The notes below the pieces were generated by a model. The model saw nothing but the letters and a program-made list of their open reading frames with translations. It was not told the origin of the DNA and made no database searches. From Gallaecimonas mangrovi (lineage in GTDB: Bacteria; Pseudomonadota; Gammaproteobacteria; Enterobacterales; Gallaecimonadaceae), in assembly GCF_003367375.1 (NCBI RefSeq), contig NZ_CP031416.1, positions 2,735,501 through 2,799,500 on the forward strand: 64,000 nucleotides of DNA. Direction: 5' to 3'. The translations under genes were made by a program, and so were the position numbers. Positions within the stretch are counted from its first letter, which is position 1. The number at the start of each line of letters is the position of its first letter. Positions 15,710 through 44,297 of the stretch are shown here, in pieces.

Positions 15710-15979
15710 TTAACGACGCAGACCCAGCTTACCGATCAGATCAGCGTAACGCTGAACGTCTTTCTTCTTCAGGTAGTCCAGCAGCTTACGACGCTGGGAA
15801 ACCATACGCAGCAGACCACGACGGCTGTGGTGATCTTGTTTGTGCTGGGCGAAGTGACCTTGCAGGTGAGTGATCTGGGCAGTCAACAGGGCAACTTGAA
15901 CTTCCGGGGAACCGGTATCGTTCTCGCCGCGGCTGTGTTCTGCAACGATTTTAGCTTTCGCTTCAACGCTTAGTGACAT
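15710..15979 (-). CDS. rpsO: 30S ribosomal protein S15
   Basis: Primary 16S rRNA-binding protein of the small subunit platform. 89 aa, the exact family length. Recognised from [15 protein letters not shown], the [14 protein letters not shown] motif, [25 protein letters not shown] and the C-terminal [12 protein letters not shown]. The ATG is preceded by AGGAGA. It lies between truB and pnp in the conserved order. Confidence 0.98.
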
Positions 15980-16071
15980 GATGTCTCCTAGTAGATAAAC
16001 ACATGGCCGATCACTAATTCAGCCATGCAAGAGGCGCGCATTCTACCCTAAGGCAAGCAAACTGCCAAGGG

Positions 16072-22157: not shown

Positions 22158-22270
22158 TCCTCCAAAAACAAAAAAAGGGCTAAGCGCCCAGTATCACAGC
22201 CGACTACGCCAGGCGTAATCGATACCTCCGCAACAAGTCCCTATGGTCACTGCGCGGACTTTGTATAGCA

Positions 22271-22295
22271 AAAAGCCCCGAACATGCGGGGCTTT
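22271..22295 (-). terminator. Terminator between tRNA-fMet and rimP
   Basis: AAAGCCCCG-AACATG-CGGGGCTTT, with TTTTTGC following on the - strand. It should end most tRNA transcripts; read-through or a promoter in the 110 bp before rimP would feed the nusA operon. Confidence 0.8.
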
Positions 22296-22364
22296 CTTCA
22301 ACCTGACGTTGACTGACCCCGCATGGGGCCGGCTAACCAAAAGCAAAGCCTTTGATTAACTGTT

Positions 22365-25342: not shown

Positions 25343-27268
25343 TTAATTGGCGGGAGCCTCTCCACCGGTTGGTCGCATCGGCTTATCTGCCTCTCCTGCG
25401 GCCGGTGGCGGCGTATTTTCAGACTTAGGCGGCTGCCAGTCAGCAGGAGCCCTTACGTCACGCCGGTTCATCAGATCGTCAATCTGTTTGGCATCGATGG
25501 TTTCATACTTCATCAACGCATCTTTCATGGCATGGAGAATATCCATGTTTTCTTCCAAGATTTTCTTGGAACGCTGATAGTTGCGGTCAATAACGTGTTT
25601 GATTTCTTCATCGATAGCACGGGCTGTTTCATCAGACATGTGCTTACTTTTCGCAGCACTTCGGCCTAAGAAAACTTCACCATCGTCTTCAGCGTAAAGC
25701 AGCGGCCCCATTTTTTCGGATAAGCCCCACTGGGTCACCATCTTGCGCGCAATGTCAGTTGCCCGCTCGATGTCGTTAGAGGCACCGGTGGTTACCATTT
25801 CCGGCCCGTAGATGATGTTTTCCGCCAGGCGGCCACCAAACAGGCTTGAGATCATGCTTTCCAACTGCTGCTTGGAGTGACTAACACGGTCACGCTCAGG
25901 CAGATACATGGTGACACCCAAGGCGCGACCACGCGGGATGATAGACACCTTATAAACAGGGTCGTGCTCTGGCACCAAACGACCGACGATGGCATGACCA
26001 GCTTCGTGATAAGCCGTCATTTCCTTTTCTTTTTCGGTCATCACCATGGAACGGCGCTCAGCACCCATCATGATTTTGTCTTTGGCTTTCTCAAACTCTT
26101 CCATACCCACCAGGCGTTTGCTGGTGCGTGCGGCGAACAGTGCAGCTTCGTTAACCAAGTTAGCCAAGTCAGCACCACTAAAACCAGGGGTACCGCGAGC
26201 AATCAAGGCGGGCTCGACATCGTCAGCAACCGGCACTTTGCGCATATGCACTTTCAAAATTTGTTCGCGGCCACGTACATCAGGCAGTCCCACCACAACT
26301 TGGCGGTCAAAACGGCCAGGGCGCAGCAAAGCGGGGTCCAAGACGTCTGGGCGGTTAGTGGCAGCAATAACGATGATGCCTTCATTACCGTCGAAGCCAT
26401 CCATCTCAACCAGCATTTGGTTCAGCGTTTGCTCGCGTTCGTCATGACCACCGCCAAGGCCGGCGCCACGCTGGCGACCAACTGCGTCAATCTCGTCGAT
26501 GAAAATGATACAAGGCGCCGCTTTTTTGGCTTGGTCGAACATATCGCGAACACGGGACGCACCCACACCCACGAACATTTCGACAAAGTCAGAACCGGAG
26601 ATAGTAAAGAAAGGCACCTTGGCTTCACCGGCAATGGCTTTAGCCAGCAAGGTTTTACCGGTACCGGGAGGACCTACCATCAGTACGCCCTTAGGAATCT
26701 TACCGCCCAGCTTCTGGAACTTAGAAGGGTCACGCAGGTAATCAACCAGCTCGGACACTTCTTCCTTGGCTTCTTCAACACCGGCAACATCGGCAAAGGT
26801 TGTTTTAACCTGATCTTCCGACAGTAACCGGGCTTTAGACTTACCAAAGGACATAGCGCCTTTACCGCCGCCGCCTTGCATTTGCCGCATGAAAAATATC
26901 CACACGCCAATCAGCAACAGCATTGGGAACCAATTGATAAGAATGCTGGTTAATAAGCTGGGTGATTCCGGTGTAACGCCGGTGGCGTCCATTACGTTAT
27001 GCGCTTTCAGATCGTTGATAAGATCTTTGTCATAACCACCCGGAATAACGGTTTTGTAGTGCTCGCCACTGCTCAACGAGCCGGAAACAACACCGGACTT
27101 GTTGTCAACAACAGCACTTTTCACCTGGCCGCTTTCAACCCAAGTCAAAAACTGGGTGTAGCTGACCGCGGTACGATTCGGTTCAGAACCATTGAAGCTT
27201 TGGAATACTGCCATCAGTACAACGGCAATAACCAACCAAAGAATGAGATTTTTAGCCATGTCGCTCAA
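25343..27268 (-). CDS. ftsH: ATP-dependent zinc metalloprotease FtsH
   Basis: Membrane-anchored AAA+ protease that degrades LpxC, sigma-32 and misassembled membrane proteins. Two N-terminal TM helices ([16 protein letters not shown] and [11 protein letters not shown]), Walker A GPPGTGKT near residue 195, Walker [10 protein letters not shown], the second region of homology, and zinc motif HEAGH near 418. I choose TTG 27268 (MSDMAKN) because it aligns with the E. coli N-terminus and has AGAGGTG 6-7 bases upstream; GTG 27277 and ATG 27259 lack a suitable site. 641 aa. Confidence 0.97.
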
Positions 27269-37767: not shown

Positions 37768-38559
37768 TTAACCTTTCAGGCCCAATACGTCTTTCATATC
37801 GTATAGACCAGCCGCCCTTCCCTTTGCCCAATGGGCTGCGCGAAGCGCGCCGGTGGCAAAAGTGTCACGGTTATGGGCCTTATGGGTTAGCTCGATGCGT
37901 TCACCGTCACCGGCAAAAAGCACCGTGTGTTCGCCAATAATGTCGCCGCCACGCACCGTGGCAAAACCGATGGTTTGGCGATCACGCTCGCCGGTAATGC
38001 CTTCACGGCCATAAACAGCGCAGTTTTTTAAGTCGCGGCCCAGCGCTTTGGCAGCGGCTTCACCTAACGCCAGCGCAGTACCGGAAGGGGCGTCTTTTTT
38101 ATGGCGATGATGGGCTTCAATAATTTCGACATCGACACTGTCACCCAGCACCGAGCTCGCCAGTTCCACTAACCCCAGCAGCAGGTTAACGCCAACACTC
38201 ATGTTGGGGGCAAACACCACCGGCACCTTTTTCGCTGCTGCTTCAAGGGCGGCCTTTTGCTGTTGATTAAGTCCGGTGGTGCCAACGATAAGCGCTTGGC
38301 CATTTTCGGCGCAAAGCGCCGCCACCTTGGCGGTATTGTCTGGGGAGGTAAAGTCAATAACCACATCGCCGGTGATATTGGTGCCAAGGGCAACACCTAA
38401 TGCATCGGTACCGGCCACAGTCCCGGCATCAGTGCCAATCAGCGCATTACCGGGGCGTACCTGCGCAGCACTGAGCTGCGCTTGGCTATCAGTGGCTAAC
38501 GCCCGAATGAGTGCCCGGCCCATACGGCCGTTGGCGCCAAGAATGGCTATTTTTGTCAT
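37768..38559 (-). CDS. dapB: 4-hydroxy-tetrahydrodipicolinate reductase
   Basis: Lysine/diaminopimelate pathway enzyme. 263 aa from ATG 38559. Nucleotide-binding [13 protein letters not shown], the active-site segment [19 protein letters not shown] and [11 protein letters not shown] are present. Its ATG overlaps the stop of the RND pump gene (TGATG), so it is translationally coupled to an efflux gene; no separate promoter is obvious. In the ancestral order it sits between dnaJ and carA. Confidence 0.95.
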
Positions 38560-41500
38560 CACGCTTTCTCGTCCTCAACTGAGGGCAACACTCTAACCGC
38601 TTTTCCTTCCCGTTTCAGCGCTTCATTTAATTGCTGGCTAACATGCTCTGGCGAGCGGGTATTGCGGGCAAGCCACGCATACATAACAGGCGTCACCAAT
38701 AAGGTAAAAAAGGTCGCGATAATAATACCAAACAACACCACCACCCCTATCACGTAGCGGGTTTCAGCACCGGCGCCGCTGGCCATCACCAAGGGCACGG
38801 CGCCTGCGGCGGTGGTAATGCCGGTCATCAGAATGGGCCTTAACCGCTGGGCGCAGGCGGTGAGCAAAGCATCGGTAAAATCTTTGCCTTCATCGCGTAA
38901 CTGGTTGGCAAATTCAACAATTAAAATGCCGTTTTTGGCGGCCAGGCCAATCAGCATAATGATGCCTATCTGGCTGTAGATATTGATGGTTTGGCCGGTA
39001 AGGTAGAGCCCGACTAACGCCCCCAGCATCGCCAGCGGCACCGACAGCATAATCACCACCGGGTGAATATAGCTTTCAAACTGCGCCGCCAGCACCAAAA
39101 ACACCACACCAAGGGCCAGGGCAAAAATAAAATAAACCGATCCCGAGGCATTTTTGTAATCCAAAGAGGCGCCTTTGTAGTTAATGGTGGCCTCAGCTGG
39201 CAACAGCCGCGCTGCAAGTTCATCTAAATAATCAAGGGCTTGGCCCAAGCTGTAACCGTCGGCAAGGTTAGCTTCAATGGTGATGGCCCGCATGCGGTCA
39301 TAGCGGCTTAAGGTGGCGGCATCGGCCATTTCTTCAATCTTGATAACCGACGATAAAGGAATAAGCGCACCGCTTTTATCTGAGCGCACATAAATACCGC
39401 CAATGTCTTTGGGCGAACGCTGCTTGTCGCGTTCGCCTTCAACTATGACGTCGTACTCTTCACCACTTTTTACAAAGGTGGTGACCACCTTTGAGCCAAG
39501 CATGGTTTCAAGGGTGCCACCAATGGTGCCAATGGTAATGCCAAGATCTGCGGCGCGGGCGGTATCTACGACAATTTTGAACTGTGGCTTGGTTTCTTTG
39601 TAGTCATCGCCAATGCCTAAGAGCCCCGGGTTTTTCGCCGCTTCGGTTTCGATGATATCGCGCCACTGGCGCAGGTTTTCAAAGTCGGGGCCACCAATGA
39701 CAAATTGCACCGGCTTGGTATTACCGCGGCCAAAGGCGCTACGCACCACCGTTGACACCTTCACCCCGGCAAGGTCGCTCAAACGGGTCCGCACATCCGC
39801 CATCACCTGGCCTATTGGCCGCCGCTCGGCCCAGTCTTTTAACGACACTGTAATTTGCCCGGTATTAAAGGCCTGCACGCCGCCCCAGCCACGCGGTGCC
39901 CGCGTAATAATGCGGCGAAGCTCACCTTTACCGTCCAGCATCGGCAACAGGCGCTTTTCAATTTCGTCCATATAGGACGCCATGTAGCTATAAGAGGCAC
40001 CTTCTGGGCCATTAACCATGACCGTAAAGGCGCCTCTGTCCTCAGCGGGGGTAAATTCGCTGGGTACGTGTTCGACCAGCCAGGCCACCGCGCCAATACT
40101 GGCAACCACCATCAGCAGTACCCATATGGGATAACGGATAAGCTTATCGAGTAATCGCCGGTAACTGCCGCCAAGACGCTCCAGGAGCCGGTCCATAAAC
40201 CCGGATAAGCCGCGATGGCCCTGATGCGGGGTCAGCAATTTCGAGCACATCATTGGCGATAGCGTCAGCGCCACAATGGCAGAGAACACCACAGCAGAGG
40301 CCATGGCTACTGCGAATTCGGTAAAGAGTTTGCCAAGGTCACCTTCCAAAAAGGTAATGGGCATAAACACCGACACCAACACGGCGGTGGTGGCAATCAC
40401 CGCAAAGGAAACCTGCCGCGCACCGAGGAATGAGGCCACCAAAGGCGACTCACCACTTTCAATGCGCCGGTGAATGTTTTCAAGCATCACGATGGCATCG
40501 TCCACCACCATGCCAATAGCCAAAATAAGCGCGAGCAAGGTCAGCAGGTTAATGGTGTAGCCCAGGGCATAAAGCACAATTACCGCCCCCATTAACGACA
40601 CCGGTAACGCCAAGGCCGGCACCAGCATCGCCCGCACCGACCCTAAAAACAGGTAAATCATCACCACCACTAAGATCATGGCGATAACCAGCGTCTCGTA
40701 GACCTCTTTTACCGAACGCTCAATAAACACTGACGAGTCGTAGCCAACAATCAGCTTCATGCCCGGAGGTAGGGTTTTATTGAGCTGCTGGCGTAGCTGA
40801 TGGGCGGCGCGGGCGACTTCCAGGGTGTTGGCGGTAGAGGTTTTGGTAATGCCCAGCCCCACCATGTTCACGCCATTACCGCGAAACATTTTGCGGGTGT
40901 CATCGGTGCTTTCTTCAACCCGGGCCACATCCGACAACTTAACCAAGTATCCGTCGTTACCGCGGCCAATCACCAGGTTGGCGAAATCCTGAGGCTTTTG
41001 GTATTGGCGCTGCATGCGAATGGTAAAGTGGCGATCTTTGGCTTCAATAGAGCCGGCGGGTAATTCCACATTTTGGCTCAGCAGCGCATTTTCAACATCG
41101 GTAACGGTAAGGTTGCGGGCCGCCAGGGCTTGGCGGTCAATCCAAATACGCATTGCCGGGCGTTGCTCGCCACCAATACGCACCCGGGCCACACCGTTGA
41201 TGACAGAAAAACGGTCAACCAGGTAACGGTCGGCGTAGTCCGACAAGGCTTTAACCGTCATCCGGTCAGACAGCAGGTTTAGCCACATTACGGTTTCGTC
41301 GCTAGCGCCCGCTTTGGAAACTTCTGGCGGGTCGGCTTCTTCCGGCAAGTTATTAAGGGCCGTTGAGATTTTGTCTCGCACGTCGTTAGTGGCAGCATCA
41401 ATGTCACGGCCCACATCAAATTCGATGGTGATACTGGAACGGCCATCTTCGCTGCTTGAGCTGATGTTACGAATGCCTTCAATACCCGACACCCGGTCTT

Positions 41501-41702
41501 CTAAAAGCTGGGTAATACGCGACTCCACCACCGCTGCCGAAGCGCCGCGGTAGCTGGTTTGAATAGTCACTTGCGGCGGGTCGATGCTGGGGTATTCCCT
41601 AAGTGGCAGCTTATCAAAGGCCACCAGCCCAAAAATCACCAACAGTAATGCCAACACCGACGCCAGCACCGGCCGGCGTACCGATACATCGGTGAGGATC
41701 AT
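38559..41702 (-). CDS. RND efflux pump inner-membrane transporter (HAE1 family)
   Basis: Proton-driven multidrug pump subunit, 1,047 aa. The protein starts [20 protein letters not shown] and has the AcrB-like topology of 12 TM helices with two large periplasmic loops. The TM4 proton-relay motif [17 protein letters not shown] is intact. It resembles VexD/MexK-like single pumps more than AcrB. The periplasmic adaptor gene overlaps by 4 bp upstream; no outer-membrane channel gene is present, so a TolC-type protein from elsewhere is expected. Confidence 0.95.
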
Positions 41703-42760
41703 AGCGGTGCTCCGGGAATATCTTCACTGCGGGTTTCTACCTTGTCGCCATCACGCACCTTTAACAGGCCACGAATAATCACCTGCTGCCCGGCACTGAG
41801 GCCGTTAGTCACTTCCACCACTCCGGGCTGGCGAAGGCCAAGGGTAATGGGAAGCTCTTGCACCACATTTTGTGCGTTGACCACAAACACATAGTGCTGA
41901 CTGTTGATTTGAAATACCGCTGCCGCCGGTATCGCCAAGGCTTGGCGAGCCTCTTTAACCAAGCGAATACGCAGCAACATGCCGGGGCGCAGTAAGTCTT
42001 GGCGGTTTTGTAATTCAGCGCGCACGGTGGCACTGCGTGACACCGGGTCGATACGGGTATCAACACTGGCCACGGTGCCTTTAAAAACATGGTCAGGTAC
42101 GGCTTCGGCGCTGGCAAAAATGGCTTTACCGGAGGCCAGTATCGGCAAGAAACGCTCTGGCACGGTGAAATCAAGCTTAATGGGGCTAACGTCATCCAGG
42201 GTGGTAATAGCGGTGCCAGGACTGACCAAAGCGCCGGTACTGACTTCCCGAAAACCCAATACACCGTCAAAAGGGGCACGAATAAAACGGTCGTCCAGTT
42301 GCGCCTGGGCTTGGGCTACCTTGGCCTTGGCAATTTGCGCGGCACTTTGCAGGCGATCTAGCTCGGAGGCAGCAATGGTTTTGGTACGCACCAAATCGGT
42401 AATACGATTAAACTCGCGCAGCTGCTGTTTAAGATCTTCCTTGGCGGCATCCAGGGCGGCTTGTTCTTCCTTGTGCACCAAGGTCACCAGCAGTTGGCCG
42501 GCCTTGACCGCTTGGTTATCGTGAAAATGCACCGCTTGAATTTTGTCGCTGACGGTCGCGGTTACGGTGATTGATTCAAAGGCTTTAGTGGTGCCCAAGG
42601 CTTCGATTTCGTCAGACAACATACGTGATTGCACCGGCGCGGTAACCACCCTCACCGTTAATGCCTTGTTGGCGATAACCCTTTGCTGTTTTTGCCAAAC
42701 AACAACAGCGCTTCCGATAAGCGCAAGCAAAACCACAGCGAAAACAACAGCCTTTTTCAT
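41699..42760 (-). CDS. RND efflux periplasmic adaptor
   Basis: 353-aa membrane-fusion protein with an N-terminal TM anchor (VVFAVVLLALIGSAVVVW), a lipoyl/barrel-sandwich domain (IQAVHFHDNQAVKAGQLLVTL), an alpha-hairpin (KEDLKQQLREFNRITDLVRT) and a beta-barrel domain (DDRFIRAPFDGVLGFREVSTG). It is not lipidated. Its stop overlaps the start of the pump gene by 4 bp. Confidence 0.94.
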   Translation of the reverse strand: MKKAVVFAVVLLALIGSAVVVWQKQQRVIANKALTVRVVTAPVQSRMLSDEIEALGTTKAFESITVTATVSDKIQAVHFHDNQAVKAGQLLVTLVHKEEQAALDAAKEDLKQQLREFNRITDLVRTKTIAASELDRLQSAAQIAKAKVAQAQAQLDDRFIRAPFDGVLGFREVSTGALVSPGTAITTLDDVSPIKLDFTVPERFLPILASGKAIFASAEAVPDHVFKGTVASVDTRIDPVSRSATVRAELQNRQDLLRPGMLLRIRLVKEARQALAIPAAAVFQINSQHYVFVVNAQNVVQELPITLGLRQPGVVEVTNGLSAGQQVIIRGLLKVRDGDKVETRSEDIPGAPL

Positions 42761-42884: not shown

Positions 42885-42934
42885 TGCCATCTGGACGTCT
42901 AGACGTTGACAGCCTGTTAGCACTGGCGTAAATT
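42885..42934 (+). promoter_or_regulatory. MetJ-type operator over the promoter of the NhaC-family gene
   Basis: Three tandem 8-mers at 42885-42908 (TGCCATCT, GGACGTCT, AGACGTTG) match the met box AGACGTCT at 5, 7 and 6 of 8 positions. A promoter TTGACA (42906-42911), 17 bp, TAAATT (42929-42934) overlaps the last box, so MetJ-SAM binding there would block RNA polymerase. The downstream gene starts at 42971. Confidence 0.75.
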
Positions 42935-42970
42935 TGCGCGCTTTTACGCCGCTATCCCTTGAGGCCATTG

Positions 42971-44269
42971 ATGTCTAAGTCATCTGCATCCCCTTTACCT
43001 TTAGTGCCGTTGTTGGTTTTTTTGGCACTATTTTTAGGGGTTGGCACCTATTTCAGCCTAACCGGGGTGGCGAAAGCGTTTTACCAGCTACCGGCGCCAG
43101 TGGCGGTATTGCCCGCCTTGATTGTCGCCGTGCTTATCTCCAAAGAAAGCATTAACAAAACCGTTGAGCAGTTCTTAGCCGGTTGTGGCCATTCCAACAT
43201 TATGGCCATGTGTATCATCTACTTGCTATCGGGTGCTTTTGGCGCTGTAACCAAGGCGACTGGCGGCGTTGACGCCACCGTATATTTAGGGATGTCACTG
43301 ATCCCAACCGCGCTGCTACTGCCAGGTTTGTTCGTTATTGCCGCTTTTATTGCCACTGCCATGGGCACGTCGATGGGTACCATCGCAGCCCTGGCGCCGG
43401 TGGCCCTAGGCATAGCGCAGCACGGCGATTTGCCGTTAACCGTCACCGCCGGCGCTTTGCTCTCTGGCGCCATGTTTGGTGACAACCTATCGGTTATCTC
43501 CGACACCACCATTGCCGCCACCCGAACTCAGGGCTGCGAAATGAAAGATAAGTTTCGTGCCAACTTCCGCCTCGCTTTGCCTGCCGCCTTGCTGACCTTG
43601 CTGTGGCTCGGTTTTAGCGGCGTTAGCCACCACCCGGCCGCCCTCAAAGCCTATTCCATTTTACCGGTACTGCCTTATATCACCGTTATGGTACTGGCCA
43701 TTGTCGGCCTAAACGTTTTTGTAGTGCTGATCATTGGCATTTTACTGGCAGGGGTAGTGGGGCTGACCGGTGATTACCACTTGGCTCAGTTCGCCAAAGA
43801 TATCGATACCGGCTTTTCCAACATGCAAGAGATCTTGATATTGTCTTTGCTGATGGGCGGCCTGGCCTACTTGATGGAGCGCCAAGGCGGTTTGGCATGG
43901 TTAGCGCAAAAGCTGGGCCGCGGCAGTAGCCGCAGCGCAGGGGAGCTGTCCATTGCCGCGCTGGTGTTTACCACCAACTGTTGTACTGCCAATAACACAG
44001 TGTCGATTATTGTTAACGGGCAACTCGCCAAAGACATTGCCCAGCAAAACGCCATTAGCCCGGTACGCAGTGCCAGTTTATTGGACATTTTTGCCTGTGT
44101 TAACCAAGGGTTGGTGCCATGGGGCGCACAAGCGCTGATGCTAGGCGCCCACTTTGCCTTATCGCCGCTAGAGGTAGTGAGCAGCTCTGGCTACGTGATA
44201 TTGCTCGCCGCTATTACCTTAGCCAGCACCTTATTCAAACCGGTCCGCCAGCTACTGGTGAAACATTAA
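42971..44269 (+). CDS. metT: NhaC-family transporter, probable methionine transporter MetT
   Basis: 432-aa membrane protein with about 11 TM helices. Family motifs GTSMGTIAALAPVAL and SGAMFGDNLSVISDTTIAAT are those of the NhaC Na+/H+ antiporter superfamily. That superfamily includes MetT, a predicted Na+-dependent methionine transporter found in the methionine regulon of some gammaproteobacteria. The met boxes over its promoter are the reason for preferring MetT to a generic antiporter. The ATG at 42971 has GAGG 6 bases upstream; TTG 42959 is less likely. A shared terminator follows. Confidence 0.75.
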   Translation: MSKSSASPLPLVPLLVFLALFLGVGTYFSLTGVAKAFYQLPAPVAVLPALIVAVLISKESINKTVEQFLAGCGHSNIMAMCIIYLLSGAFGAVTKATGGVDATVYLGMSLIPTALLLPGLFVIAAFIATAMGTSMGTIAALAPVALGIAQHGDLPLTVTAGALLSGAMFGDNLSVISDTTIAATRTQGCEMKDKFRANFRLALPAALLTLLWLGFSGVSHHPAALKAYSILPVLPYITVMVLAIVGLNVFVVLIIGILLAGVVGLTGDYHLAQFAKDIDTGFSNMQEILILSLLMGGLAYLMERQGGLAWLAQKLGRGSSRSAGELSIAALVFTTNCCTANNTVSIIVNGQLAKDIAQQNAISPVRSASLLDIFACVNQGLVPWGAQALMLGAHFALSPLEVVSSSGYVILLAAITLASTLFKPVRQLLVKH

Positions 44270-44297
44270 AAAGGCCCCTCTGTTGAGGGGCTTTTTT
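44270..44297. terminator. Bidirectional terminator, metT / LysR gene
   Basis: AAAAAGGCCCCTC-TGTT-GAGGGGCTTTTTT lies between the convergent genes. The right edge overlaps the stop of the LysR gene. Confidence 0.87.

Follow-up and report, generated by a model that had tools for sequence, protein, structure and literature searches.

A predicted tandem MetJ operator upstream of a metT-like gene of the NhaC family in Gallaecimonas mangrovi

In the 64 kb stretch of the Gallaecimonas mangrovi genome analyzed here (the window), three adjacent met boxes precede a gene of the NhaC family. They very probably form a tandem operator, through which MetJ represses this gene, metT, coding for a probable ion-coupled methionine importer. 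The reading is founded on four direct observations: the boxes themselves, the fact that they are conserved, their association with metJ and with methionine genes, and the place of the protein within the MetT clade.

The operator may be envisaged to act as follows: at high SAM, SAM-bound MetJ dimers would sit side by side on boxes 1 to 3, covering the -35 region and blocking polymerase from starting; when SAM drops, MetJ would be released and metT expressed, leading to methionine uptake. Repression by MetJ would apply to this metT by analogy with published work on orthologues: MetJ repression ratios of 0.08 and 0.21 are reported for Vc.metT and Sh.metT (PMC3228920). Methionine as the substrate, and the coupling ion, are presumed.

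Met boxes and promoter of metT

All the features described here lie on the plus strand. Box 1 (42885–42892, TGCCATCT), box 2 (42893–42900, GGACGTCT) and box 3 (42901–42908, AGACGTTG) match the consensus AGACGTCT at 5, 7 and 6 of 8 positions; box 2 is conserved in all four congeners. Box 3 overlaps by 3 bp the -35 hexamer, TTGACA (42906–42911), identical in all five species of the genus aligned; the -10 hexamer TAAATT (42929–42934) is identical in four of the five, G. mangrovi included, and differs in L027. The spacer is 17 bp long, and the promoter matches the consensus at 10 of 12 positions. A likely ribosome-binding site, TTGAGG, is found in the sequence at 42959–42964, ahead of the ATG at 42971. 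The three adjacent octamers of the original prediction, and their overlap with a TTGACA-N17-TAAATT promoter before the start codon, are thereby confirmed in their positions.

The array scores 18 of 24, the top value of the window, where the next best is 15; the octamers flanking it match at one (before) and two (after) of 8 positions. When the 210 bp intergenic region was shuffled preserving dinucleotides, none of 2000 sequences reached 18 of 24 for three boxes (1/2000 were as good for two boxes, 3/2000 for four). Single boxes, in contrast, are at chance frequency in the window (164 octamers with at most 2 mismatches, against 169 expected): what counts as evidence is therefore the tandem order of the boxes, together with conservation. 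Scoring with a MetJ matrix, a check proposed with the original prediction, was carried out with a matrix trained on 12 further tandem sites from this genome: position 42885 ranks first in the window for three boxes, with 18.9 versus at most 6.9 elsewhere. Its two-box score, 16.7, is near the bottom of the range of the training sites (15.9–22.4), which places the metT site among the weaker operators of the genome.

The runner-up array of the window (15/24), found at 26341 within an ftsH-like ORF, was set aside. A riboswitch in place of MetJ was also considered, and rejected: no Rfam model matches at gathering score in the metT region (window or L018), nor at metT in eight relatives, picked for the absence of boxes, of metJ or of both.

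Conservation of the operator

Met boxes were also sought before orthologues, as had been suggested, and were found in all four congeners, in 10 out of 14 other relatives and in 65 out of 80 named loci. In the congeners the array scores 16, 17, 19 and 18 of 24, and the alignment features a block, CGTC(T/C)(A)(G/A)ACGTTGACA, kept over boxes 2 and 3 and the TTGACA hexamer, within diverged surroundings. The 14 relatives lie outside the genus and carry both metJ and an orthologue of at least 55% identity; arrays scoring at least 16 were counted. In the remaining four of the 14, G023, G046, G054 and G058, no array is present between -300 and +40. In G034, where metJ is present, the homologue is only 41% identical and features no array. 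None is found either in the metJ-less relatives G026 (57% identity), G025 (45%) and G052 (40%), which score 11–12 of 24; the homologues of the last two are distant, so that the contrast with metJ-less genomes comes down to G026.

For the named orthologues, 420 bp of upstream sequence were scored in the best 80 of 566 confirmed loci: the count of 65 refers to scores of at least 17 of 24, and 71 of the 80 reach at least 16. The 15 loci below 17 thus include nine below 16. Many of the 80 loci come from near relatives, and they are not to be read as 80 independent cases. Of control stretches of equal length, taken from the same loci, 1 out of 1195 reaches the array threshold.

metJ and the regulon of the genome

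The complete 4.07 Mb genome contains one copy of metJ (PF01340, 189 bits, E 3.1e-56), the absence of which would have spoken against the MetJ reading. The metJ/metB genes have boxes of their own, the upstream sequence reading AGGCGTCA AGATGTTT AGACGTCT. Scanning the genome for two adjacent boxes, with at most 3 mismatches, returned 18 places, versus 5 for the reversed pattern. By position, the 18 places form 12 clusters, 11 of which, that of metT included, are located beside methionine or B12 genes, as assigned from ORFs and family models: metK, mtnK with an mtnA-like ORF, metA, metE, metB/metJ, metF, metT, two short MetE-like genes, a PLP enzyme of Cys/Met metabolism, and a gene resembling a TonB B12 receptor, preceded by a cobalamin riboswitch. 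The twelfth cluster, within an rpoA-like ORF, is probably a chance match. The PLP enzyme reaches no NCBIfam cut-off among the 25 models listed; the TonB receptor gene is a partial sequence, whose best match is the B12-receptor model, below its cut-off.

Some of these loci have features of their own. In L015 a met-box pair at 1501–1516 (2172125–2172140 of the genome) lies 46 bp ahead of the cobalamin riboswitch (1563–1737, 117.6 bits). To judge from the sequence, the B12-receptor-like TonB gene may be under double control, by MetJ and by the riboswitch; the same double control is described for btuB in PMC3228920. The two short MetE-like genes (L012 and L013, at 1074511 and 1077103 of the genome) are 2.6 kb apart, each preceded by tandem boxes. 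The mtnA-like ORF (L005, 1–1482, minus strand) runs for about 160 residues past the match to the IF-2B domain, still open where the locus ends: the extension is either a fusion or a frame artefact.

The MetT-like protein

The metT-like gene (42971–44269, plus strand) codes for a 432 aa protein of the NhaC family, scoring 69 bits against PF03553 (cut-off 23). A terminator-like hairpin, identified by consensus match and readable on both strands, follows at 44274–44291 (plus strand), and suggests a transcript with metT as its only gene.

In a tree of 44 rows, the sequence is placed in the clade of the Shewanella and Vibrio genes named MetT in the literature (31 rows, support 93/98), beside its congeners; the metT loci of S. 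oneidensis and V. cholerae are represented here by Shewanella sp. ANA-3 and by other species of Vibrio. The grouping of all 12 paralogues as one is weak (34/12), and, because of long branches, the deep part of the tree is unsure. Identity to the best 80 named orthologues is 55–61%, to the other NhaC-family genes of the same genome about 30%. The orthologues of Shewanella sp. ANA-3, Vibrio diabolicus and Aeromonas enteropelogenes have arrays scoring 18, 19 and 16; no array is found before eight paralogues of the same three genomes (11–13), or before the four NhaC-family paralogues checked in G. mangrovi (0 out of 4; 11–12). The A. enteropelogenes genome shares its coordinates with G049, and the two are probably one genome. 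Contig 81 of G053 contains a second orthologue-like copy with an internal stop.

The predicted model of the protein (pLDDT 87.3, pTM 0.84) matches MleN, presumably a malate/lactate antiporter, as well as TRAP, ArsB and INDY-type carriers, by Foldseek and VIA-align. MleN (9a59, a computed integrative model) is the closest fold in the PDB (Foldseek TM 0.73; VIA-align Z 30.3, rmsd 4.6 over 416 residues), yet it is only 20–22% identical in sequence, and a PDB sequence search with the MetT-like protein gave no match with E up to 1. NhaP and NHA2 appear in Foldseek as weak rows (TM 0.15–0.16), and NhaA-type folds are absent from the 50 VIA-align matches listed. The modelled fold speaks for an elevator-type solute carrier, and by itself would indicate no substrate.

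A further element comes from the genomic context: MetQ (PF03180) is found in 0 of 5 genomes of the genus, compared with 25 of 59 genomes overall. Without MetQ an importer would otherwise be missing, and MetT is the probable main methionine importer of the genus.

Behind a genuine operator, the carrier may still serve a different cargo, as a Na+/H+ antiporter proper or as a transporter of a related sulfur compound; this is rather unlikely. The family names reached by profile matches are indeed only those of NhaC and ArcD-like antiporters. Transport by MetT is termed predicted in PMC4239095, and a Vibrio NhaP antiporter of unknown substrate is also placed under MetJ in PMC3228920. However, the protein, although sharing PF03553 with NhaC, scores 78 bits against the NhaC equivalog TIGR00931, well below the curated cut-off of 370, its fold is like those of the INDY, TRAP and ArsB substrate carriers, and no MetQ was found in the genus, where an importer would otherwise be missing; Gram-positive genes named MetT are, in addition, under SAM riboswitches (PMC2940859). 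The original prediction had preferred a methionine transporter (MetT) to a Na+/H+ antiporter: clade membership and the score below the NhaC cut-off support this choice, methionine transport itself being deduced.

Relation to known MetT systems

The association of MetT with MetJ is already in print, in 2011 and 2014. In PMC3228920 (2011), MetT is described as a transporter of the NhaC family, present in Alteromonadales, Aeromonadales and Vibrionales and with metboxes before it in nearly every case; in PMC4239095, metT belongs to the core MetJ regulon and codes for a predicted sodium-dependent methionine permease. The window case is a further member of this known regulon and transporter family, to which it adds one genus. 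The gene, likely to be labelled 'Na+/H+ antiporter', is more correctly called 'probable methionine importer MetT'.

The G. mangrovi gene resembles the metT genes of Vibrio and Shewanella, as presented in PMC3228920 and PMC4239095, in family, in the upstream met boxes and in the presence of metJ in the genome. It differs from them in two points of arrangement: within the genus Gallaecimonas, box 3 extends into the -35 hexamer, and the divergent neighbour of metT is an RND efflux operon. No difference of mechanism is shown. Gram-positive MetT, such as cpe2317 of C. perfringens, shares with it the NhaC superfamily and the control by methionine/SAM status, but is controlled, according to PMC2940859, by an S-box riboswitch, whereas the metT region of the window has no Rfam match.

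Divergent RND efflux genes

The intergenic region of metT is shared with the gene of an RND efflux adaptor (41699–42760, minus strand), which forms with 38559–41702 a divergent efflux operon. Since this adaptor/pump-metT pair is kept in all four congeners, and the boxes are about 125 bp from the adaptor start, the operator might serve the efflux operon, either alone or jointly with metT. This is quite improbable: the adaptor is found in none of 98 other orthologue loci, most of which still feature boxes before metT; the boxes overlap the -35 of metT itself, and no minus-strand promoter-like site was found in the intergenic region. Boxes preceding metT without RND neighbors indicate that the operator belongs to metT, and make sole control of the RND genes unlikely. 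Should the operator, against expectation, also control the pump within the genus, a multidrug-type pump would be tied to methionine/SAM status.

That the three octamers are a chance match is hardly credible: single boxes are as frequent as expected by chance, and one genomic cluster out of 12 is probably fortuitous, but the array, unequalled in 2000 shuffles, is kept in congeners and orthologues and missing from paralogues.

Two leaders are also found on the minus strand of the window: a ribosomal S15 leader at 15923–16030 and a rimP leader at 22170–22328.
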